From: a virus
Direction: 5' to 3' (one strand)
IMG/VR virus record: IMGVR_UViG_3300017960_000001
Coordinates: 1 to 64,000 of that record
Length of the DNA: 64,000 nt
Translations under genes and position numbers: made by a program
The notes under the pieces: generated by a model
What the model was told of the DNA's origin: nothing
The model's database searches: none
The model's input: only the letters and a program-made list of their open reading frames with translations
Part shown: piece by piece, positions 32 to 62,942 of the stretch
Position numbering within the stretch: position 1 is the stretch's first letter
Layout: each line of letters opens with the position of its first letter

Positions 32-211
32 ATGAATAGCGAGGACGTGAGGCTGCTCGTCGTGTTGCTGGTGGTGTTCCTCGTCATCCCGATCGCGGGG
101 TTGGTGTGGGCCGAGTTCGGACGGCGCCGCAAGGATCCGGGGAGCCTGACCGCCGACGACATCGAGCGAGGGCGGCGGGACATGATCGAACGTAGCCGGG
201 GCGACGGTTGA
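32..211 (+). CDS. small single-pass membrane protein
   Basis: Encodes 59 residues. Residues 7-27 form one strongly hydrophobic segment (LLVVLLVVFLVIPIAGLVWA), followed by a charged Arg/Asp/Glu-rich tail, so an N-out or N-in single-span inner-membrane protein is likely. The ATG at 32 overlaps the end of whatever lies upstream: frame 1 is open from base 1 to a stop at 37-39, and another frame stops at 33-35. The upstream GAGGGG is a modest ribosome site. Small one-span proteins of this kind often sit in phage lysis or membrane-takeover units, but nothing here identifies it as a holin. Confidence 0.6.
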   Translation: MNSEDVRLLVVLLVVFLVIPIAGLVWAEFGRRRKDPGSLTADDIERGRRDMIERSRGDG

Positions 212-235
212 CACCGACACGGAACCGGATACCAT
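208..235 (+). promoter_or_regulatory. sigma70-type promoter, TTGACA-N16-TACCAT
   Basis: TTGACA at 208-213 and TACCAT at 230-235 are separated by 16 bases. The start of transcription is expected near 242. A GTG at 243 opens a 31-codon frame (GTG ACA CAG ACA...) ending at 336-338, so a leaderless short ORF is possible, resembling the ATGATGAC leaders of the repeated cassettes further on. The promoter overlaps the stop codon of the preceding gene and would drive the RHH/HTH pair. Confidence 0.5.
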
Positions 236-268
236 GGATCGAGTGACACAGACAACGATTCCAGTTAT

Positions 269-1760: not shown

Positions 1761-1823
1761 GAAAACGACAAGCACCTGTCTTATTTTGTTGACACGACCA
1801 GGCCAGCGGGTTACATTATCCTC
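1761..1823 (+). promoter_or_regulatory. terminator-promoter cassette, copy 1
   Basis: A-tract, then stem GACA (1767-1770)/TGTC (1777-1780) around a 6-base loop, then TTATTTT. TTGACA lies at 1789-1794, a 17-base spacer follows, and TACATT is at 1812-1817. Six bases later comes ATGATG at 1824, at the expected +1. This copy has a good -10 and no TGn extension. Copies at 3136, 4403, 7424, 9104, 60236, 60866 and 62748 share the arrangement. Confidence 0.8.
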
Positions 1824-1859
1824 ATGATGACGCACACAACAAACACCGCGGAGGACAAA

Positions 1860-3135: not shown

Positions 3136-3202
3136 GAAAAAAAACGACAGCGGTGTGTCTTTTTTTGTTGACGCGACGGACGCAGCATGCCAGTATTTAC
3201 TC
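3136..3202 (+). promoter_or_regulatory. terminator-promoter cassette, copy 2
   Basis: Eight A, stem GACA (3146-3149)/TGTC (3156-3159), then a seven-T tract: the most terminator-like copy. TTGACG 3168-3173, 17-base spacer ending ATGC (extended -10 TGn), CAGTAT 3191-3196, ATGATG at 3203. Confidence 0.8.
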
Positions 3203-3244
3203 ATGATGACGCACACCAAAAACACCAACGCCGGGGAGGACAAC

Positions 3245-3619
3245 ATGGATAACGCGCACACCTCGAACCTCATCGACATCACCGACATGACCGCGGCCGA
3301 GCTGGACGCGCTCCTCGACACCGCCGCCGGCGACGACACCGACGACGACGACACCGACACCGACGCCGACCGCCCCGCCGGATTGACCGACCGGGTGTGG
3401 GCGGCGATCGTCGCGTCCAAGGCCGACCCGACTCTCTGCATCGAGGTCGACCACTGGTCGCGCATCGAACGAACCCAGCTGGCTAGCTACTACGGTTGGA
3501 AGCTGACCGACCCCGTAACGACCGATTGGATTTGGGGGAGCGACCGGGACACCGACACCGGCCCCGACTACGAGAAGATGATCCTCGCCCGGCAAGACCG
3601 CGAGGATTGGGGCTACTAA
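3245..3619 (+). CDS. hypothetical acidic early protein with D/T-rich run
   Basis: Encodes 124 residues from the ATG after GGGGAGGACAAC. The in-frame ATG at 3203 at the promoter +1 would prepend 14 residues (MMTHTKNTNAGEDN). An N-terminal segment rich in Asp, Thr and Ala (nt 3331-3371 repeat GACACC/GACGAC) precedes a folded-looking C-terminal half with several Trp (DRVWAAIVASKADPTL, YYGWKLTDP, DWIWGSD). No family recognised. It leads the copy-2 unit. Confidence 0.65.
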   Translation: MDNAHTSNLIDITDMTAAELDALLDTAAGDDTDDDDTDTDADRPAGLTDRVWAAIVASKADPTLCIEVDHWSRIERTQLASYYGWKLTDPVTTDWIWGSDRDTDTGPDYEKMILARQDREDWGY

Positions 3620-4402: not shown

Positions 4403-4469
4403 AAAAAAATCAGCATACCCGGTGCTTATTTTTGTTGACGCGGCGGGCGAGGCGTGTCAGTATTATCTC
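4403..4469 (+). promoter_or_regulatory. terminator-promoter cassette, copy 3
   Basis: Seven A, stem AGCA (4412-4415)/TGCT (4423-4426), TTATTTTT. TTGACG 4435-4440, 17-base spacer ending GTGT (TGn), CAGTAT 4458-4463, ATGATG at 4470. The stem bases differ from copies 1-2 on both arms together. Confidence 0.8.
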
Positions 4470-4508
4470 ATGATGACGGGCACCAACAACAACGACACGG
4501 GGCACACA

Positions 4509-4763
4509 ATGACCAAAACTCAACGCAACTCTCTGGCAAGCCTCCGCGCGGTTGGTTCCGCGGACATCGTCGGGCAGGGCGGGATCTACGTTTACGACCC
4601 GGACCCCCGCGGCGACGGACCGTGCACGCCGGCCGCTACCATCGGGCACAACGTCGCCCGCGCTCTCGTCGACGCCGGGGTGGCCCACGTCGAAAAGAAC
4701 GGCCGCACCATCGAGCTTTGGAAAGTGTGCGGGGGCGGCGCGAAGCTGGTTCCGAATAACTAG
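4509..4763 (+). CDS. hypothetical small early protein
   Basis: Encodes 84 residues from the second in-frame ATG. Here the usual GGAGG is degraded to GGGG, so the ATG at 4470 (leader MMTGTNNNDTGHT, 13 residues) may be the main start. The body (TQRNSLASLRAVGSADIVGQ, then YVYDPDP...NVARALVDAGVAHVEKNG) resembles a small winged or ParE-like mixed fold, but no family is recognised. Confidence 0.6.
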   Translation: MTKTQRNSLASLRAVGSADIVGQGGIYVYDPDPRGDGPCTPAATIGHNVARALVDAGVAHVEKNGRTIELWKVCGGGAKLVPNN

Positions 4764-7423: not shown

Positions 7424-7490
7424 GAAAAAATCAGCAGGACGTGTGCTTATTTTTATTGACACGGTGGGCCCCACGTGCCAGAATTTACTC
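7424..7490 (+). promoter_or_regulatory. terminator-promoter cassette, copy 4
   Basis: Six A, stem AGCA (7433-7436)/TGCT (7444-7447), TTATTTTTA. TTGACA 7456-7461, 17-base spacer ending GTGC (TGn), CAGAAT 7479-7484, ATGATG at 7491. It is preceded by 69 bases after the exonuclease stop in which I see nothing else. Confidence 0.8.
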
Positions 7491-7730
7491 ATGATGACAC
7501 GGACACAACACACGGCGACGCGCACCGAAAAGGGGACCGGCTGTCCCGCCCGCACGGGTGAGTGCTGCTTCGGCAAGGGTTCGACTCCCTCGTTCGCCTC
7601 TCAGTTTGTTTCGCGGTTGGTGTTGGCGGTGGCAATCACGGCCGGGGGCAATGCGGCTCTCGACCGGACGGCCGACTACCACGCCCGAACCCAGACCACG
7701 ACCCGCGACCACGTCGCGGGCGGGAGGTAG
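7491..7730 (+). CDS. uncertain leader ORF of cassette 4 (or untranslated leader)
   Basis: An open frame of 79 codons begins at the cassette ATGATG and ends inside the ribosome site of the next gene. Unlike other copies there is no second ATG with GGAGG. The predicted protein is Thr/Arg-rich with one hydrophobic stretch (VSRLVLAVAITAGGNAAL) and three Cys. Bases 7575-7599 resemble the T-arm and 3' end of a tRNA (AGGG, TTCGACT, CCCT), so this interval may be an RNA element rather than a gene. Confidence 0.3.
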   Translation: MMTRTQHTATRTEKGTGCPARTGECCFGKGSTPSFASQFVSRLVLAVAITAGGNAALDRTADYHARTQTTTRDHVAGGR

Positions 7731-9103: not shown

Positions 9104-9167
9104 GAAAAAACGACAGCCACTCGCTTATTTTTGTTGACACGACCGGCGAGGCATGCAATACTGAGGC
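9104..9167 (+). promoter_or_regulatory. terminator-promoter cassette, copy 5
   Basis: Six A, short stem AGC (9115-9117)/GCT (9123-9125), TTATTTTT. TTGACA 9134-9139, 17-base spacer ending ATGC (TGn), AATACT 9157-9162, then five bases to ATGATG at 9168. Confidence 0.75.
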
Positions 9168-9203
9168 ATGATGAACGGACACAACAACACAACGGAGGAC
9201 ACA

Positions 9204-9911
9204 ATGACCGACGCCAATAGCAACACCAACGCCGCCGACAACAAGCTGGTAACCGCGGAACTGTACCGCTACGGATGGGGACGCAACAACATCGCCGACG
9301 AGCACCGCGACGCCGAGAAAAAGCGGAAGGCCGCCGTCGACACCATGCGGAAGCTGGCGAAGGCGGCCGACCTGCTCAAGACCATCGGCCACGACATCGA
9401 CGACGACCCCACGCCCGACGGCATGGACCACAACGAGTCGATGAAGGTTGCCCGGGCGATCGACAACCTCCGCTCCACGTTGGGCGACATGGAGAACCGT
9501 TGCGCCGGCACCGCCCCGGTCGTGGTGAAGCGCATCGACCGGAAGGTCCGTTGCCGGGTGTGGCGGAAGCGGGGCACCTACGGACGCGGCGCCGAAATCA
9601 AGGCCGCCGTGCTCGCCATCGTCGGCGACCGCGCTCTGGTCAGCTGGAACGAGTCCAACAAGCACGGCAAGGCGGACCGCTACTTCGTAGAGGTTCCGGC
9701 GCTCTACGACGTGTCCTCCTACGACGCCGACGACGCCAAATATGAGTTGTCCGTGTCCGTCACCGACAAGGATTGCGCCGCGTGGATCGAAACCGAATGG
9801 ACCTACCGCGCCAAGTCCACCCGCCGCCTCCCCGACGTGTGGCTGCACGCCGTCCCGACCCGGACCAAGAAATCGATCGCCGACCTCCGCGCCGCGTCCG
9901 ACAACAACTAG
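9204..9911 (+). CDS. hypothetical early protein
   Basis: Encodes 235 residues from the ATG after ACGGAGGACACA; the in-frame cassette ATG at 9168 would add MMNGHNNTTEDT. Residues about 35-110 are helical and Lys/Asp-rich (DAEKKRKAAVDTMRKLAKAA). Then a beta-rich domain begins (VRCRVWRKRGTYGRGAEI, VLAIVGDRALVSWNES), compatible with a small SH3/Tudor-like barrel. No family recognised. Sole gene of the copy-5 unit. Confidence 0.65.
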   Translation: MTDANSNTNAADNKLVTAELYRYGWGRNNIADEHRDAEKKRKAAVDTMRKLAKAADLLKTIGHDIDDDPTPDGMDHNESMKVARAIDNLRSTLGDMENRCAGTAPVVVKRIDRKVRCRVWRKRGTYGRGAEIKAAVLAIVGDRALVSWNESNKHGKADRYFVEVPALYDVSSYDADDAKYELSVSVTDKDCAAWIETEWTYRAKSTRRLPDVWLHAVPTRTKKSIADLRAASDNN

Positions 9912-9970: not shown

Positions 9971-9999
9971 TTGACGCGACCGCCCGCCGGCGGTAGGAT
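9971..9999 (+). promoter_or_regulatory. promoter without leader cassette, likely start of the morphogenesis operon
   Basis: TTGACG 9971-9976 and TAGGAT 9994-9999 are exactly 17 bases apart, as in the cassettes. The A/T-tract hairpin and the ATGATG leader are missing, and the first gene follows with a normal GTGGAGGGAACC ribosome site. No other clear promoter is visible before 60236. Confidence 0.55.
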
Positions 10000-37766: not shown

Positions 37767-40046
37767 ATGGCAACCGGACGATCAAGAGTCACTTCGAAAT
37801 TCCGGCAGGGTACGCGCAACGTTACCGGCCTGCCGACGAGTCAAGGCGGGGTGGTGGCGATTACCGAGCGGGGCCCGGTCGGGCAGCGGACCGCGGTCAC
37901 CTCGGCGGAATCTTTCAAACGGACATTCGGCGGCATCACCGAGGAGGGCACGCTGGCCCACCTCATGGAGGCGTTCTACGCCCTCGCACCCGGCGCCGAG
38001 CTTTACGTGACGCGGACCTGTCACTACACCGACATCACCGACCCGAACAGCTTCACCGCGGTCGCGGCGACGCTCATGCTCGACACCGCAGGGGCGTTCG
38101 CGTCTGCCGCGTCGGTCGACGGTACGATCGCCGGGCCATGGAACCTGCTTCCCGCGGCGCCGGACATGGACATCACGACCAACCTCGGCGGTCCGAACAG
38201 CGCGCAGATTACCTACGCCCCGGCCGCGTTCTCGAGCTTCGTCGTGTTCCCGATCGCCCCACTAGCCGGTGGCGAGAACATGACGATCGACACCGGCGAC
38301 GGCAACGGGCCGCAGACGATCACCGCGGCCGGCGGCGAGGTGTCGTTGCTGGACATGATAAACCTGATCAACGGACAGCTGCTCGGCGGTGCCGCGAAGG
38401 ACGTTGGCGGGCAGCTGACCGTCGAAACCGATCAGCACGGTTCCGGCGCCACGCTGACCTTCGCCGCGGGGGCCCCCGACCTCGCCGTGCTGCTGGGGTT
38501 GGCACCGGCGGTGCACAGCGGAACGGGCAACGTCGTCGACGCATCGGCCGCCACCCCGGCCGAGTTGGAGACGATCATCGAGGCCGCTGACGGCAACGTC
38601 GCTGTGACCGTGAACGGGGACGACACGATCACGATCGCCACCGTGGCAACCGGCGCCACCGCGACCTTGCAGATCGGCGCCGGGTCGCCGGATCTGTCAA
38701 CCATCCTCGGGATCGACAACGTGCTGCACTCCGGCTCGGACGCCGCGGCGCAGAACACCCTCAAGGTCGACGGCAAAACCCCCGGCACCTATGCGCACGA
38801 TTTGGAGATCCTGATCGCCACCGCGAGCAACGGCAACGCCGATTACTTCGACCTGTCGGTGATGAAGGACAGCGTCGCGCAGGAGGTGTTCAAGAACGTC
38901 ACGATGGACACCTCGGCTTTGCGCTACGTCGAGACGGTGATCAACGCGGCCGGGATCGGGTCGGACCTGATCGCGGTCACCGATCAGGGAGTCGGTGCGC
39001 CATGGTCGGACGCCAAGCCCGCGAGCGGGACGACCGGTCCTCTCGCCGGAGGCGACGACGGCCTCACCTCGCTGGACGATAACGACTTCATCGGAAGCTC
39101 GGCCGGCGCAACGGGGCTCTACTCGTTCGACACCCTCGAAACCCTCAGGCTGTACGCGATCCCGTACCGGGCGAGCACGGCGGTCCACGCGGCGATCAAC
39201 ACCTACACCGAGTCGAGGGGGAATGACTGCTACGGGTTGCACCCGACGCCGGACTCTCCGAACGACTCCGTAAACACCGCCGACCTCATGGTCACGTGGG
39301 CGCAGTCGAACACGTTCGGGCTCACCGAGTTCGCGGCGCCGCCGTGCTGGCCGTGGCCGGCGATCGCCAACCCGGACGCCGCGATCTACACCCCCTCGAA
39401 TCAGTACGTCGACGCCGACGACGACAGCTTGCTGTACGTCGAGCCGAGCATGTTGAAGATGGCGAGGTTCATCGGCAACGACCGCCAACACCCCGACGGC
39501 CTATACACCTCGGCGGCGGGCCTGGACAACGACCAGGGGATCCTGCCGATGGTCGTGGGGTTGCAGTTCTTCGACGAGGTCATGGACGCCGGCAAGCGCG
39601 ACCGGCTGGCAGACGTGAACGTCGAGCCGATCGTGAAGTTCGAGGGGACCCCGTACCATTTCGACGGCGGCGACAACTGCAAGACCACCGGCGACTGGCC
39701 GCGGCAGTGGCATACCCGCGCATCGATTCACATCGTCGAATCGATCAAGGCTGCGTGGATCGTTTACAAGCACGTGAAGAACACCACGACGATGCGACGC
39801 GAGGCTGCTCGCAACGCGGAGAAGTGGGTCAACGCAGAGGTTCCCGAGGACGCCTGGGAGACGAACGACGACGGGGCGATCGCGTACCTCGAAGAGGACG
39901 CGCCGCTGTTCTACGTCGACACGTCCGACGAGCTGAACCCGTCCGAGGTTCGGGCGCTCGGGGAGTTCCGAGCGCGGATCGGGCTCGGGTGGGCCTACGA
40001 CGCGAAGTTCATCGAGATCGAAGTCTCGCGCCCGGCGCTGCCGTAG
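37767..40046 (+). CDS. contractile tail sheath protein
   Basis: Encodes 759 residues with AACGGAGGAGAGC before the ATG. N-terminal PTSQGGVVAITERGPVGQRT and FKRTFGGITEEGTLAHLMEA are the classic start of phage sheath proteins. The C-terminal 250 residues form the sheath core (YTESRGNDCYGLHPTPDSPN...; YHFDGGDNCKTTGDWPRQWH; RIGLGWAYDAKFIEIEVSRP). Residues about 165-322 hold one complete and one partial copy of a beta-rich insert domain (ENMTIDTGDGNGPQTITAAG; GATLTFAAGAPDLAVLLGL), so this sheath is longer than a minimal one. It proves a contractile tail. Confidence 0.88.
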   Translation: MATGRSRVTSKFRQGTRNVTGLPTSQGGVVAITERGPVGQRTAVTSAESFKRTFGGITEEGTLAHLMEAFYALAPGAELYVTRTCHYTDITDPNSFTAVAATLMLDTAGAFASAASVDGTIAGPWNLLPAAPDMDITTNLGGPNSAQITYAPAAFSSFVVFPIAPLAGGENMTIDTGDGNGPQTITAAGGEVSLLDMINLINGQLLGGAAKDVGGQLTVETDQHGSGATLTFAAGAPDLAVLLGLAPAVHSGTGNVVDASAATPAELETIIEAADGNVAVTVNGDDTITIATVATGATATLQIGAGSPDLSTILGIDNVLHSGSDAAAQNTLKVDGKTPGTYAHDLEILIATASNGNADYFDLSVMKDSVAQEVFKNVTMDTSALRYVETVINAAGIGSDLIAVTDQGVGAPWSDAKPASGTTGPLAGGDDGLTSLDDNDFIGSSAGATGLYSFDTLETLRLYAIPYRASTAVHAAINTYTESRGNDCYGLHPTPDSPNDSVNTADLMVTWAQSNTFGLTEFAAPPCWPWPAIANPDAAIYTPSNQYVDADDDSLLYVEPSMLKMARFIGNDRQHPDGLYTSAAGLDNDQGILPMVVGLQFFDEVMDAGKRDRLADVNVEPIVKFEGTPYHFDGGDNCKTTGDWPRQWHTRASIHIVESIKAAWIVYKHVKNTTTMRREAARNAEKWVNAEVPEDAWETNDDGAIAYLEEDAPLFYVDTSDELNPSEVRALGEFRARIGLGWAYDAKFIEIEVSRPALP

Positions 40047-40069
40047 CGTAAAAGAGGAGGCAACCAACC

Positions 40070-40525
40070 ATGGCGAAGCCGAGGACCTATTACGACGCAT
40101 TCCGCTTCCGGGCGGAGATCGCGGGCGTGACCGCCGGACACTTCTGGAATGTCGGCCCGTTCAAAATGACCGTGAGCGGGGTCGAGGTTCCGGTGCCGCA
40201 CGGCGCCGTGCTCGAGGACCTTCCCGGTCAGGCGAAAATGCAGCCGTTCACCATCGAGGGACCGTTGTCCGAGTTGGTGGATCTCTACAATCTCTTCAAG
40301 CAGACGGTCGACGTGGCGACCGGCCTCGGAGAGACGGAGCCGAACCTGTATCAGGACATCGACTTCGTGCAGCTGGACCGCGACGGATCCGACCTCGAAA
40401 TCGTCCGGGTTTTCAAAGCCTGGGGTATCGATTACGAGATGACGAAGTTCGACAAAAAGGAGAACGACAAGCGACGGGAACTGCTCGAAATGCGGGGGCA
40501 GTATTTCCAGCGGCTACCCGTCTAA
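40070..40525 (+). CDS. tail tube protein (T4 gp19-like)
   Basis: Encodes 151 residues with GAGGAGGCAACCAACC before the ATG, directly after the sheath. PRTYYDAFRFRAEIAGVTAG, then PFKMTVSGVEVPVPHGAV and IVRVFKAWGIDYEMTKFDKK, follow the phage tube family (ligand strands, then the late AWP/AW segment). Length is typical. It would polymerise into the inner tube. Confidence 0.85.
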   Translation: MAKPRTYYDAFRFRAEIAGVTAGHFWNVGPFKMTVSGVEVPVPHGAVLEDLPGQAKMQPFTIEGPLSELVDLYNLFKQTVDVATGLGETEPNLYQDIDFVQLDRDGSDLEIVRVFKAWGIDYEMTKFDKKENDKRRELLEMRGQYFQRLPV

Positions 40526-45165: not shown

Positions 45166-46544
45166 TGGGTAGCGGCCCCGTCATCTGGCTGTCGTTGATC
45201 CAATCCGACGAGGGCGGGGACGAAACGCTCGAGCTGGTACAGGACCGGCTCGAATCCTTCACCTTCATCGACCGCGACCGGGGCAAGGATGTGTGCGAGC
45301 TTCGGTTCCGCGATCGGGACATGGCGCTGCTCGACAACCCCGCTTTCCGCAAGGGACAGAAGCTCGCGGTGACGTGGGGTTGGCCGGACAACATCGCCAC
45401 CCCGCGACGGATGATCGTGAAGCGCACAAAGGAAGTGAACCTCGTCAAGCTGCTCGACGAGTCCGTGCTGCTCGACCGCTCTCGGAAGTCCCGGGTGTGG
45501 CACGATGTCTACGACTCTGATGTGGTCTACCAGATTGCCGAGGAGAACGGCTACGAGGGGATTCTGGCGGACGTACTCCAAACGTTTGTCATCCGTCACG
45601 CGATCACGCAGGAGGGCACAGACGCCGCCCTGCTCAACCAGCTGGCGCGTCGCAACGGGTTCGTCTGGTACATCGACGCAGCCGGGCTCCATTTCCACCC
45701 TCGGCGGTGGGGCGTCGAACCGACTCACTTCTTCACCTACGTGAACGCGCCCGGGCTCGGCGACGTGCTCTCGCCGCCGGTGATTCAGGGGAATGTGCAG
45801 GACGTCTCGAAGATCCGGGTGGTCGCGCGGGACCCGATCACCAAGGAAACCGTCGAGGCCGAGGTCGGCGCCACCACCGACGACGAAACCCTCGGCGACT
45901 ACCTCGAACACTACTACTCGCTCGGCGACGACGAGGAGATCGGCGACCCCGACAACCCGGACGGGCGACGGCAAGCGAGGGCGTCGTCGAAGGAAACGAT
46001 CAACATCGGCCTCGCCACGCAGGAGGAGGTGTCGAACGAGGCCGCGGCCCGGTATTTCGAGACGGCTCAGGGACGGTACAAAATGGAGGTGACGCTGCGC
46101 GGTAACCCGCAGGTCGGGGCGAAGCAGCTGCACTATTTCAAGCTTCCGTCCGAGGCTTTCACCGGGCTATACTACTGCACCGAGGCGCGCACCGAAATCA
46201 CTCCCGGTAGCTACAAAATCATGGGGAAATACAGGAAGGACGCGCTCGGAAAGTTGGCGGCGAAGAAGGTCCTCTCGGTCGGCCGGAAGAAGAACAAGAA
46301 ACCGGCCGACGTTCCGCTCGACGAGAACGGTCAACCGGCGGACACGTCGTCCCTCGAAAAGATGCTGACGTGGGGAGAGGAGAACGGGCAACCTGTGCCG
46401 AAGTGGCAATACAAAGACAAGTCGGGGACGTCGGTCGGTAGCAGTACAGCGGTCACCGCGGCCGAATGGTCGGCGCTACCGGCGAACCAACGCGACGACC
46501 TGATCAGCAAGTCCGCGGGCGGGCTCGTCCTGCCGGGAGAATAG
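45165..46544 (+). CDS. baseplate hub protein, gpD/XkdQ-like
   Basis: Encodes 459 residues. WLSLIQSDEGGDETLELVQD, then FTFIDRDRGKDVCELRFRDR and DAALLNQLARRNGFVWYIDA, are the typical blocks of phage late-control gene D/T4 gp27-like hub proteins. The middle holds an acidic region, and the C-terminus a Lys-rich low-complexity segment (KKVLSVGRKKNKKPADVP). It would form the trimeric hub binding the spike (next gene). Coupled to both neighbours. Confidence 0.8.
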   Translation: MGSGPVIWLSLIQSDEGGDETLELVQDRLESFTFIDRDRGKDVCELRFRDRDMALLDNPAFRKGQKLAVTWGWPDNIATPRRMIVKRTKEVNLVKLLDESVLLDRSRKSRVWHDVYDSDVVYQIAEENGYEGILADVLQTFVIRHAITQEGTDAALLNQLARRNGFVWYIDAAGLHFHPRRWGVEPTHFFTYVNAPGLGDVLSPPVIQGNVQDVSKIRVVARDPITKETVEAEVGATTDDETLGDYLEHYYSLGDDEEIGDPDNPDGRRQARASSKETINIGLATQEEVSNEAAARYFETAQGRYKMEVTLRGNPQVGAKQLHYFKLPSEAFTGLYYCTEARTEITPGSYKIMGKYRKDALGKLAAKKVLSVGRKKNKKPADVPLDENGQPADTSSLEKMLTWGEENGQPVPKWQYKDKSGTSVGSSTAVTAAEWSALPANQRDDLISKSAGGLVLPGE

Positions 46545-60235: not shown

Positions 60236-60300
60236 GAAAAACGACAGGCACCTGCTTATTTTTGTTGACACGGCCGGCGGACCGCGTTACATTCCTACAC
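60236..60300 (+). promoter_or_regulatory. terminator-promoter cassette, copy 6
   Basis: Five A, CAG...CTG stem (CAGGCACCTG, 60245-60254), TTATTTTT. TTGACA 60265-60270, 17-base spacer, TACATT 60288-60293, seven bases to ATGATG at 60301. Like copy 1 it has the better -10 and lacks the TGn extension. It resets transcription after the tail operon. Confidence 0.8.
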
Positions 60301-60333
60301 ATGATGACGCACACACAAACCCCGGAGGATGCC

Positions 60334-60534
60334 ATGGCCGACGACATCAATCACGTTGAGCTGGAAATGAAAGCCCGCAACTGCACCGACGCCGAACTGA
60401 TATTCATGCGGGACGACGCCGGCGCCGCGTGGCGCGCGATGCCGGACAATCCCAAGGCCAAATTCTACCGGTGGGAAATGTGCTACGCCTGCAACGAAAT
60501 CGCCCGCCGCGGGTTGTCCGCGGACGGTTGCTAG
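60334..60534 (+). CDS. hypothetical small early protein
   Basis: Encodes 66 residues from the ATG after GGAGGATGCC; the cassette ATG at 60301 is in frame and adds MMTHTQTPEDA. Helical pattern (VELEMKARNCTDAELIFMRD; KFYRWEMCYACNEIARRG) with a C-terminal CxxC pair. Function unknown. Confidence 0.6.
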   Translation: MADDINHVELEMKARNCTDAELIFMRDDAGAAWRAMPDNPKAKFYRWEMCYACNEIARRGLSADGC

Positions 60535-60865: not shown

Positions 60866-60930
60866 GAAAAAACGACAGGCACCGTATTCTTTTTGTTGAC
60901 ACGGCGGGCGGGGCGTGCAATGATGTTCTC
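60866..60930 (+). promoter_or_regulatory. terminator-promoter cassette, copy 7
   Basis: Six A, weak or no stem (CAGGCACCG), then ATTCTTTTTG. TTGACA 60896-60901, 17-base spacer ending GTGC (TGn), AATGAT 60919-60924, ATGATG at 60931. This is the one copy with a decayed stem. Confidence 0.75.
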
Positions 60931-60969
60931 ATGATGACGGACACACAAACCAACGCAACGGAGGAAAAA

Positions 60970-61488
60970 ATGCCGACCCTGACCAACGACGAAGCCGCCC
61001 TGGCAATCACCGCGATCGAGCACTACATCAACACGCTTCACCACATGGCGGGGGACACCAACCCCGACCACGCCAAGGCGTTGCACGCCCGCGCCGACGA
61101 GTTGCGGGGGGTCCACCGCTCGCTGCTGAAGTCCGACGAGCCGGGGACCGACGCGGACACCGACGCCGACACGAACACCGCCCCCGACGAGGACGCGATG
61201 AAGGACGCCGCCGCGGCCGAGTTCGGGATCACCCGGACCAGCCTCGATGTGCTGCTCGACTACGCCGGCGACGCCGGAAATTGGAGCGGGTCGCCGTTGG
61301 TCGGTGGCAACGTCGGCGGGACGAAAGAAGAACGGGGCAACCTGACCCAACTGAAAAAGGCCGGGCTGATTTCGACGTGGGTGGAGGAGGGGAATTCGTG
61401 GGTGGACTTCACCCCGAAGGCCGCCGACGCGATCCGCGCCGCCGGCGACACCAAGCTGGCCGACTACATCGCCACCGTTGCCCGCTAG
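60970..61488 (+). CDS. hypothetical protein with D/T linker and C-terminal winged-helix-like domain
   Basis: Encodes 172 residues from the ATG after CGGAGGAAAAA; the cassette ATG at 60931 adds MMTDTQTNATEEK. N-terminal helices (ALAITAIEHYINTLHHMAGD), a DADTDADTNT linker (nt 61150-61184), then a C-terminal wHTH-like part (DVLLDYAGDAGNWSGSP; EERGNLTQLKKAGLISTWVE; WVDFTPKAADAIRAAG). May regulate phage genes; no family firmly assigned. Confidence 0.6.
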   Translation: MPTLTNDEAALAITAIEHYINTLHHMAGDTNPDHAKALHARADELRGVHRSLLKSDEPGTDADTDADTNTAPDEDAMKDAAAAEFGITRTSLDVLLDYAGDAGNWSGSPLVGGNVGGTKEERGNLTQLKKAGLISTWVEEGNSWVDFTPKAADAIRAAGDTKLADYIATVAR

Positions 61489-62151: not shown

Positions 62152-62363
62152 CCGGTGATTGGATCGTCGAACGGGTCGATCGGACGGACGACATTCGCTA
62201 CCCGTTCAGGGTGATCGGCAGGTTGCGCGAAACCGGCGAGCTGTTCCGGTGGTGCGTCCCGTCGGTCGCCTCGAAACGCTACGACCTAAGGCTCGCTGAG
62301 ATGGACCAGAAAACGAGGGCGGCGGTGGACGTCGCCCGCTATCAACCGGAGGCTCAACAATGA
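62145..62363 (+). CDS. hypothetical small protein
   Basis: Encodes 72 residues; ATG at 62145 inside the end of the previous gene. Beta-rich start (DWIVERVDRTDDIRYPFRVI) and a helical C-terminus (LRLAEMDQKTRAAVDVARYQ). The stop overlaps the start of the response-regulator gene (ATGA). Partner or adaptor role unknown. Confidence 0.5.
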   Translation: MVTGDWIVERVDRTDDIRYPFRVIGRLRETGELFRWCVPSVASKRYDLRLAEMDQKTRAAVDVARYQPEAQQ

Positions 62364-62731
62364 AGCGGATTCTCTTGGTGGACGACAACGACCTCGTCCG
62401 GCGGTCCCTAGCCCGGGTGCTGTCCAGCACCGGCGTCGAGGTCGACACGGCGGACGACCTCACGAAAGCGGTGCTGCTCATGTGCGTCGCCGCCGACCTC
62501 TCTCCCTACGACGCAGTGATCTCCGACATGGACCTCGGCAACGGCCACGACGCCGGCGGGCTCGCCGTGCTCGAGGTGGCGCGTCGGATCCTGCCCGGCG
62601 CCCGCCGGGTGCTGGTTTCCGGGTCGACCTTCGAGGAGGGGCCGGTGCGGGAGGCGATCGACACCGGCGCCTGTGATCGGTTCCTCCCCAAACCATGCCG
62701 GGCGGACGACTTGCTGAAGGCCCTACTCTAA
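62360..62731 (+). CDS. stand-alone response-regulator receiver (CheY/Spo0F-type) protein
   Basis: Encodes 123 residues, only a REC domain. Acidic pocket D8 and D9 (ILLVDDND), phospho-acceptor D56 (DAVISDMDLGNG), switch Ser87 (VLVSGS) and Lys111 (FLPKPC) are all present, so a phosphorylatable receiver is expected. There is no output domain. Stand-alone receivers relay or drain phosphate from histidine kinases. In a phage this could intercept a host phosphorelay. ATGA overlap with the small gene upstream; the copy-8 cassette follows. Confidence 0.88.
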   Translation: MKRILLVDDNDLVRRSLARVLSSTGVEVDTADDLTKAVLLMCVAADLSPYDAVISDMDLGNGHDAGGLAVLEVARRILPGARRVLVSGSTFEEGPVREAIDTGACDRFLPKPCRADDLLKALL

Positions 62732-62747
62732 GCGGCCCACCGACCTC

Positions 62748-62805
62748 GCAAAATTTATTGCTTATTTTTGTTGACACGGCCGGTGCTGCGTGCCAAGATT
62801 TACTC
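62748..62805 (+). promoter_or_regulatory. terminator-promoter cassette, copy 8
   Basis: Stem GCAA (62748-62751)/TTGC (62758-62761) then TTATTTTT; the A-tract is reduced. TTGACA 62771-62776, 17-base spacer ending GTGC (TGn), CAAGAT 62794-62799, ATGATG at 62806. Here the leader ends at an own stop codon (see uORF). Confidence 0.78.
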
Positions 62806-62841
62806 ATGATGACGGACACACACACAACGGAGGGCAACTAA
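62806..62841 (+). CDS. 11-codon upstream ORF of cassette 8
   Basis: ATG ATG ACG GAC ACA CAC ACA ACG GAG GGC AAC, then TAA at 62839-62841, two bases before the next start. It encodes MMTDTHTTEGN. The GGAGG of the next gene lies inside it. In the other cassettes this leader is fused in frame to the gene, so this copy separates the leader from the protein and shows it need not be part of the product. Confidence 0.45.
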   Translation: MMTDTHTTEGN

Positions 62842-62843
62842 CC

Positions 62844-62942
62844 ATGGCGCTGAAAAAGAACGACCGCTCCCGCAAGACCCGCAAGTCTCACCACAAGAAG
62901 CTGCGCCGCCGCGCCGACCGCGCCGCGTGCGCCGGCCGCTAG
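62844..62942 (+). CDS. 32-residue very basic peptide
   Basis: ATG at 62844 with GGAGGGCAACTAACC upstream. Translates to MALKKNDRSRKTRKSHHKK and a second half LRRRADRAACAGR. About half the residues are Arg, Lys or His, with one Cys. It could bind nucleic acid or inhibit a host factor. Too short for family recognition. Supported by the strong ribosome site, cassette promoter and tight spacing to the next gene. Confidence 0.6.
   Translation: MALKKNDRSRKTRKSHHKKLRRRADRAACAGR

Follow-up and report, generated by a model that had tools for sequence, protein, structure and literature searches.

The 64-kb window analysed here, taken from the start of an uncultivated virus record of 94,119 bp and 66% G+C, carries eight copies of a compact promoter cassette, each built of a -35 hexamer, a -10 hexamer and a tandem ATGATG. 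A search with the pattern TTGACR-N17-NANNNT-N5..7-ATGATG returned exactly the eight sites that the initial annotation had listed, and none in 100 dinucleotide-preserving shuffles used as controls; therefore, chance can be excluded for the eight window copies. Beyond the window, the remainder of the 94-kb phage that contains it (G000) holds four further copies, with -35 hexamers at 65358, 76738, 86251 and 88197, so that the genome total is 12, and every one of them is on the + strand. The structural block (~10-59 kb) is free of cassettes; it contains the terminase, portal, head and tape-measure genes. A broad motif scan additionally gave many matches inside coding sequence, which are attributed to chance.

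All eight window cassettes are preceded by an element of A- and T-tracts. The first cassette (1762-1862, + strand) is composed of this element (1762-1787), a -35 at 1789, the -10 TACATT, ATGATG at 1824, a T-free leader, GGAGG and the in-frame main ATG at 1860, and its first gene ends at 2330. The second (3137-3247, +) has the element at 3137-3166, the -35 at 3168, ATGATG at 3203 and an in-frame ATG led by a Shine-Dalgarno (SD) sequence at +43, with the ORF ending at 3619. The third (4403-4511, +; element 4403-4433, -35 at 4435, ATGATG at 4470, ORF end 4763) has its in-frame ATG at +40 preceded by GGGG in place of GGAGG. The fourth (7425-7496, +; element 7425-7454, -35 at 7456, ATGATG at 7491) leads into a tRNA-like RNA and no clear protein gene. 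The fifth (9105-9206, +; element 9105-9132, -35 at 9134, ATGATG at 9168) carries an in-frame SD-led ATG at +37 and an ORF ending at 9911. Near the other end of the window, the sixth (60237-60336, +; element 60237-60263, -35 at 60265, -10 TACATT, ATGATG at 60301) has an in-frame SD-led ATG at +34 and an ORF end at 60534, and the seventh (60867-60972, +; element 60867-60894, -35 at 60896, ATGATG at 60931) has one at +40 with the ORF end at 61488. The eighth (62750-62846, +; element 62750-62769, -35 at 62771, ATGATG at 62806) is the sole out-of-frame copy, in which an 11-codon ORF, MMTDTHTTEGN-stop, ends just 5′ of an SD-led ATG at +39 that opens a 32-aa basic protein.

About 12 non-structural transcription units of the phage are predicted to start from one cassette type. 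The cassette-led units encode mostly small proteins of unknown function, as well as a DUF3560 protein and a 3′-5′ exonuclease; a PD-(D/E)XK nuclease and a DnaB helicase follow the 65358 cassette, and at 86286 a zeta-toxin-like AAA protein is encoded. It is from this gene content that we infer an early timing of the units. A gene with a response-regulator receiver domain (window 62360-62731; Pfam PF00072, E 2e-13) was also observed in a cassette-led unit. The earlier statement that all early-type units of the window use the cassette holds only roughly, as the sites at 9971 and 208 do not. The former is a leadered promoter-like site, TTGACG-17-TAGGAT. At window 208-250 lies a possible leaderless GTG promoter (TTGACA, 16 bp, TACCAT, then GTGACACAGACAACG), and the CA-rich stretch after its GTG start codon resembles the cassette leader.

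A terminase search retrieved ~25 related contigs, and the cassette recurs in two of these relatives. In G005 (IMGVR_UViG_3300029258_001506, 98 kb, terminase 49% identical) there are eight cassettes, diverged and of the type TGTCACACTGTAACCATGATG; the 8.4-kb G021 (terminase 35%) has two. The motif is thus present in related genomes; it was not found in the other long relatives G006, G010 and G011. Three loci are orthologous between G000 and G005, namely 1824/37235, 60301/38794 (70% identity) and 7491/40015, and a fourth pair, 9168/27515, is a weak match. This sharing indicates that the cassettes are old and retained rather than solely recent duplications, and the 12 copies in G000 and eight in G005 at partly orthologous loci uphold the proposal of a phage regulon. 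Among cultured phages, the terminase and portal have distant matches only, and no DNA match to cultured relatives was found for the cassette region or for the regions of two further contigs, G053 and G054. Saccharomonospora phage PIS 136, which is similar in size and encodes a remote homologue of one G005 cassette gene, was considered as a cultured relative and set aside, the cassette not being found in it. As a host candidate, a 22-kb contig binned as Deltaproteobacteria gave the best genome match (terminase 40%); it has no cassette and is possibly a phage contig itself. An actinobacterial-type leaning to leaderless mRNA cannot be assumed for the host.

The promoter anatomy is highly constrained. 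The -35 and -10 hexamers are separated by exactly 17 bp in all 22 copies (12 in G000, 8 in G005 and 2 in G021), which lies within the 16-18 bp spacing of sigma-70 promoters. The distance from the -10 hexamer to ATGATG is 5-7 nt throughout and 6 nt in 20 of the 22 copies; within the window it is 6 nt in six of eight, 5 nt at 9134 and 7 nt at 60265. With this gap, the expected +1 falls on the first A of ATGATG, where the RNA start is accordingly predicted, and the constancy of the spacing over three diverged lineages supports the initial annotation in locating the ATG at the predicted transcription start. Its further suggestion that an extended -10 (TGn) offsets a poor -10 hexamer describes the eight window copies correctly, with TGn in the six that have a weak -10 and missing from both TACATT copies, but it generalizes weakly. 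The 76738 copy has the -10 TACGAT and yet carries TGn too, leaving only a weak trade-off over the 12 genome copies (Fisher P 0.045), and the relatives' cassettes have TGn in 10/10 regardless of the -10.

Immediately upstream of the -35, 10 of the 12 genome copies carry the A-tract...T-tract element, which the 76738 cassette (ATGATG at 76773, followed by a 19-codon ORF) is without. The initial annotation regarded the element as a terminator, that is, a hairpin before each -35 that would end the upstream transcript. In favour of this, an A-tract, a short stem and a T-tract form a convincing hairpin in about half of the copies, with best folds of -7 to -8.4 kcal/mol, and in an unrelated phage, G051, a terminator-like hairpin, made of a distinct stem followed by T5, occupies the equivalent site. 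However, the RNA folds are weak over the set (-2 to -8.4 kcal/mol, mean z ~ -0.7), several being no better than shuffles, and several copies have no real stem. The mark of an intrinsic terminator, a stable G+C-rich stem with a U-tract behind it, is thus not a feature of the set, stems being weak or absent in about half of the copies. No covariation of the left and right arms was detected between copies (permutation P 0.75), and a terminator reading based on covariation was abandoned because arm pairing within copies was no better than between copies. Moreover, 10 of the 11 occurrences of the element genome-wide abut a cassette on its 5′ side, and it is never a stand-alone terminator. Finally, the upstream region of G005 has no hairpin-then-T-tract at the element's place, but A-tracts at ~-45 to -40 and ~-55 to -50 in 8/8 copies, about one helical turn apart, and at ~-65 to -59 in three. 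We therefore consider termination an unlikely function of the element, although it would be compatible with the dual-start explanation developed below, and the terminator claim is not supported and should be dropped or left open.

The G005 A-tracts coincide in 8/8 copies with the positions of UP elements (~-46 to -38 and ~-57 to -47), while in G000 a T-tract occupies ~-44 to -36 and the A-tract is situated further up, at ~-67 to -58. Given the weak, non-covarying folds of the element and the G005 A-tracts at the same place, an UP-type promoter element appears to fit better than a terminator. A third possibility for the element is that it binds a phage-specific regulator as an operator or activator site, making the set a switchable regulon of the kind discussed for the ESAS repeats of cluster K mycobacteriophages. 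The element is indeed repeated, promoter-linked, partially dyadic and confined to non-structural units; however, it is wholly different in G005, where promoter and leader are kept, no regulator was identified, and the -35 and -10 hexamers appear sufficient for the host polymerase. We regard this reading as improbable, and retain a putative UP-type function as the preferred one for the upstream element.

Downstream of the predicted start, two features that the initial annotation did not mention both point to translation, namely a T-free stretch and a second, in-frame ATG. T is absent for about 21-23 nt or more after ATGATG in all 22 copies, where T first appears between +30 and +52; only 3 T occur in the 533 nt up to the main ATGs, versus 15% T genome-wide. 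The stretch consists of 45% A and 36% C and is ACA-rich, with 1-4 ACA motifs per leader, and the predicted fold of the first 45 nt is -3.1 kcal/mol versus -8.7 kcal/mol at SD-led gene starts (P 1.5e-6). Being T-free, it contains no stop codon in any frame, so that a ribosome starting at AUGAUG would reach the gene; selection would then require retention of the frame between AUGAUG and the gene.

The second ATG lies 33-42 nt downstream of ATGATG in 17 of the 22 copies, usually behind a GGAG(G) that resembles the ordinary gene starts of the phage; given the predicted +1, a 5′ ATGATG is thus combined with an SD-led second start in 10/12 copies in G000, 6/8 in G005 and 1/2 in G021, and in five copies the usual distance brings no second ATG with an SD. 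In 16 of the 17 it is in frame with ATGATG, at 33, 36, 39 or 42 nt (P 2.7e-7 if copies were independent, which serves only as a guide and is overstated because the copies are paralogues). The single exception is 62806, with a distance of 38 nt and an in-frame TAA directly before the main ATG. The reading frame from the 5′ AUG into a gene is interrupted or lacking at 62806 (11 codons), 7491 (RNA) and 76773 (19 codons). For the G005 gene at 45469, no alternative plausible start exists upstream of its conserved CxxC region. The leaderless mRNAs proposed by the initial annotation are therefore supported indirectly, by the frame continuity of the segment after ATGATG, but the description was incomplete: most copies add the SD-led ATG and resemble mRNAs with two starts, one leaderless and one SD-led. 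Leaderless starts are likely, but the term to use for them is dual starts.

The cassette at 7456 heads a tRNA-like RNA (7514-7598, + strand) with an acceptor-type stem, a canonical T-arm at 7576-7590 (GGGTTCGACTCCC) and two internal hairpins that replace the D and anticodon arms. It is 76% identical to G005 40035-40125, with three compensatory pairs between both phages. ARAGORN at normal settings did not report a tRNA anywhere in the window, 7514-7598 included, nor at the scanned loci, and at relaxed settings gave inconsistent cloverleaves only; the Rfam match was far below threshold, and a tRNA-pattern scan of viral contigs returned no match. The ORF at 7491, which aligns with G005 40015 from the ATGATG onward, was not counted as protein proof of a leaderless start, because the conserved stretch resembles the tRNA-like RNA. 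Retention of ATGATG before this RNA and before the 19-codon ORF of 76738 indicates that it can be kept without a long ORF, and since both copies also keep the T-free stretch, these sequences may additionally contribute to transcription or to the stability of the RNA 5′ end.

When contigs were scanned for a promoter with ATGATG and a T-free stretch, others of ~34-69% G+C also showed the layout. One is the 39-kb G053 (IMGVR_UViG_3300039106_000480), which is not among the terminase relatives of G000 and carries ten cassettes within ~6 kb, with the second ATG after 18-27 nt and in frame in 10/10. A GTTGT...ACAAC inverted repeat was seen shortly 5′ of the -35 in most of these ten cassettes. A broader scan yielded at least 99 distinct leaderless-type ATGATG starts, at least 81 of which head an ORF of 40 codons or more. 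Among the matches listed, SD-preceded internal ATGs were in frame in 21 and out of frame in 14, the first ORF being very short in most of the out-of-frame cases. ATG is the second codon at 15/68 leaderless-position starts versus 5/435 SD-led starts, a comparison biased by the choice of contigs for carrying cassettes. Two other contigs, G035 (IMGVR_UViG_3300037119_004150) and G027 (IMGVR_UViG_3300044691_000169), have four and three repeated near-consensus promoters, respectively, whose ATGATG at +1 opens ORFs; as most of them lack the T-free stretch and a nearby second ATG, these are apparently plain leaderless sets. A stretch of G035 gave a single 47-nt match, to a Cellulosimicrobium phage. 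In G029 (IMGVR_UViG_3300009702_000017), identical ATGATG promoter copies, one at each end of the contig and oppositely oriented, hint at inverted terminal repeats.

The leader could also belong to ordinary SD-led genes, in which transcription starts at ATGATG, only the downstream ATG is used, and ATGATG with the A/C-rich segment is an untranslated, unstructured leader with ACA enhancers or a ribosome standby site. The GGAG(G) or similar sequence before most second ATGs is what such genes would have, and ATGATG may then be merely the first transcribed bases. Besides, in enteric bacteria ACA motifs raise the translation of SD-led genes (PMC3879156), and in E. coli ptrB the 5′-AUG counts more than its translation, for which a standby site was proposed (PMC4965119). 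Against this explanation stand the distance between the starts, which moves in steps of 3 in 16/17 copies with a stop in the lone exception, the equally strict frame in the apparently unrelated G053, and the five copies where an SD-led second start is missing from its usual place. We hold it to be somewhat unlikely, and prefer the dual-start explanation.

Based on these findings, we propose, as the probable explanation, that the cassette is a portable early-type module combining an AUGAUG leaderless start with a usually SD-led, in-frame second start. The host sigma-70-type RNA polymerase would read the cassette through its near-consensus -35, 17-bp spacer and usually extended -10, with the A/T-tracts upstream serving as a kind of UP element, and transcription would begin at the first A of ATGATG to give an mRNA with AUGAUG at its 5′ end. 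A 70S ribosome could then initiate at this AUGAUG as on leaderless mRNA, and in most copies a U-free, A/C-rich and unstructured stretch of ~27-36 nt would lead in frame to the usually SD-led AUG, where a second initiation would produce a short protein form. The two starts could keep the genes efficiently translated under varying ribosome conditions, possibly giving two isoforms 11-14 residues apart. With slightly more doubt than confidence, we further suggest a recurrent phage design in at least two apparently unrelated lineages (G000/G005/G021 and G053), in which an early-type gene set shares the 5′ AUGAUG, the U-poor in-frame spacer and the second start, and leaderless 70S together with SD-led 30S initiation makes two protein forms. 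If this is true, the tandem AUG would let the leaderless start cope with transcription that begins 3 nt off.

Leaderless translation is so far known mostly from single genes and host genomes. A phage regulon of AUGAUG starts, most of them paired with an in-frame SD-led start, would supply one design in many naturally occurring versions across several genomes, and would make the role of leaderless starts in infection directly testable. Automated annotation favours the SD-led ATG and may therefore call the wrong, or just one, of two N-termini. A search of the open-access literature brought up no phage cassette that is repeated and joins a tandem 5′-terminal AUG to a U-free spacer and an in-frame second start. 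The nearest experimental precedent comes from E. coli mRNAs that have a 5′-terminal AUG in addition to an SD-led gene, in which many 5′-AUGs bind 70S ribosomes and some alter main-gene expression (Beck, Fleming and Janssen 2016, PMC4965119). The cassette resembles these in having a 5′ AUG with an SD-led AUG close downstream, both being able to bind ribosomes in the E. coli case; however, the latter are scattered host genes whose 5′ ORFs were taken as separate upstream ORFs (PMC4965119), whereas the cassette is repeated, has a tandem AUGAUG and a U-free spacer, and almost without exception keeps the two starts in frame. Translation is enhanced by CA repeats and by ACA motifs close to the start (review PMC9031893; PMC3879156), and the A/C-rich stretch likewise adjoins the start codon or SD, but that work concerns single genes in enteric bacteria, and the cassette stretch is additionally U-free and in frame. 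The start-associated sequence (SAS) of cluster K mycobacteriophages is a 13-bp GGGATAGGAGCCC translation-start repeat (PMC3203893); like the cassette, SAS/ESAS is a short repeat at the starts of a gene subset, about half with an upstream inverted repeat (PMC3203893). The 13-bp GGGATAGGAGCCC near a start codon is absent from the cassette sequences examined, and unlike SAS the cassette is a promoter with AUG at +1. Leaderless promoters have also been predicted in cluster O mycobacteriophages, and they are sigma-70-type phage promoters whose predicted +1 is the first base of the start codon; as described, they occupy a few sites per genome, and the passages on them mention no repeated AUGAUG leader or in-frame second start (PMC4351075), the features by which the cassette described here is set apart.
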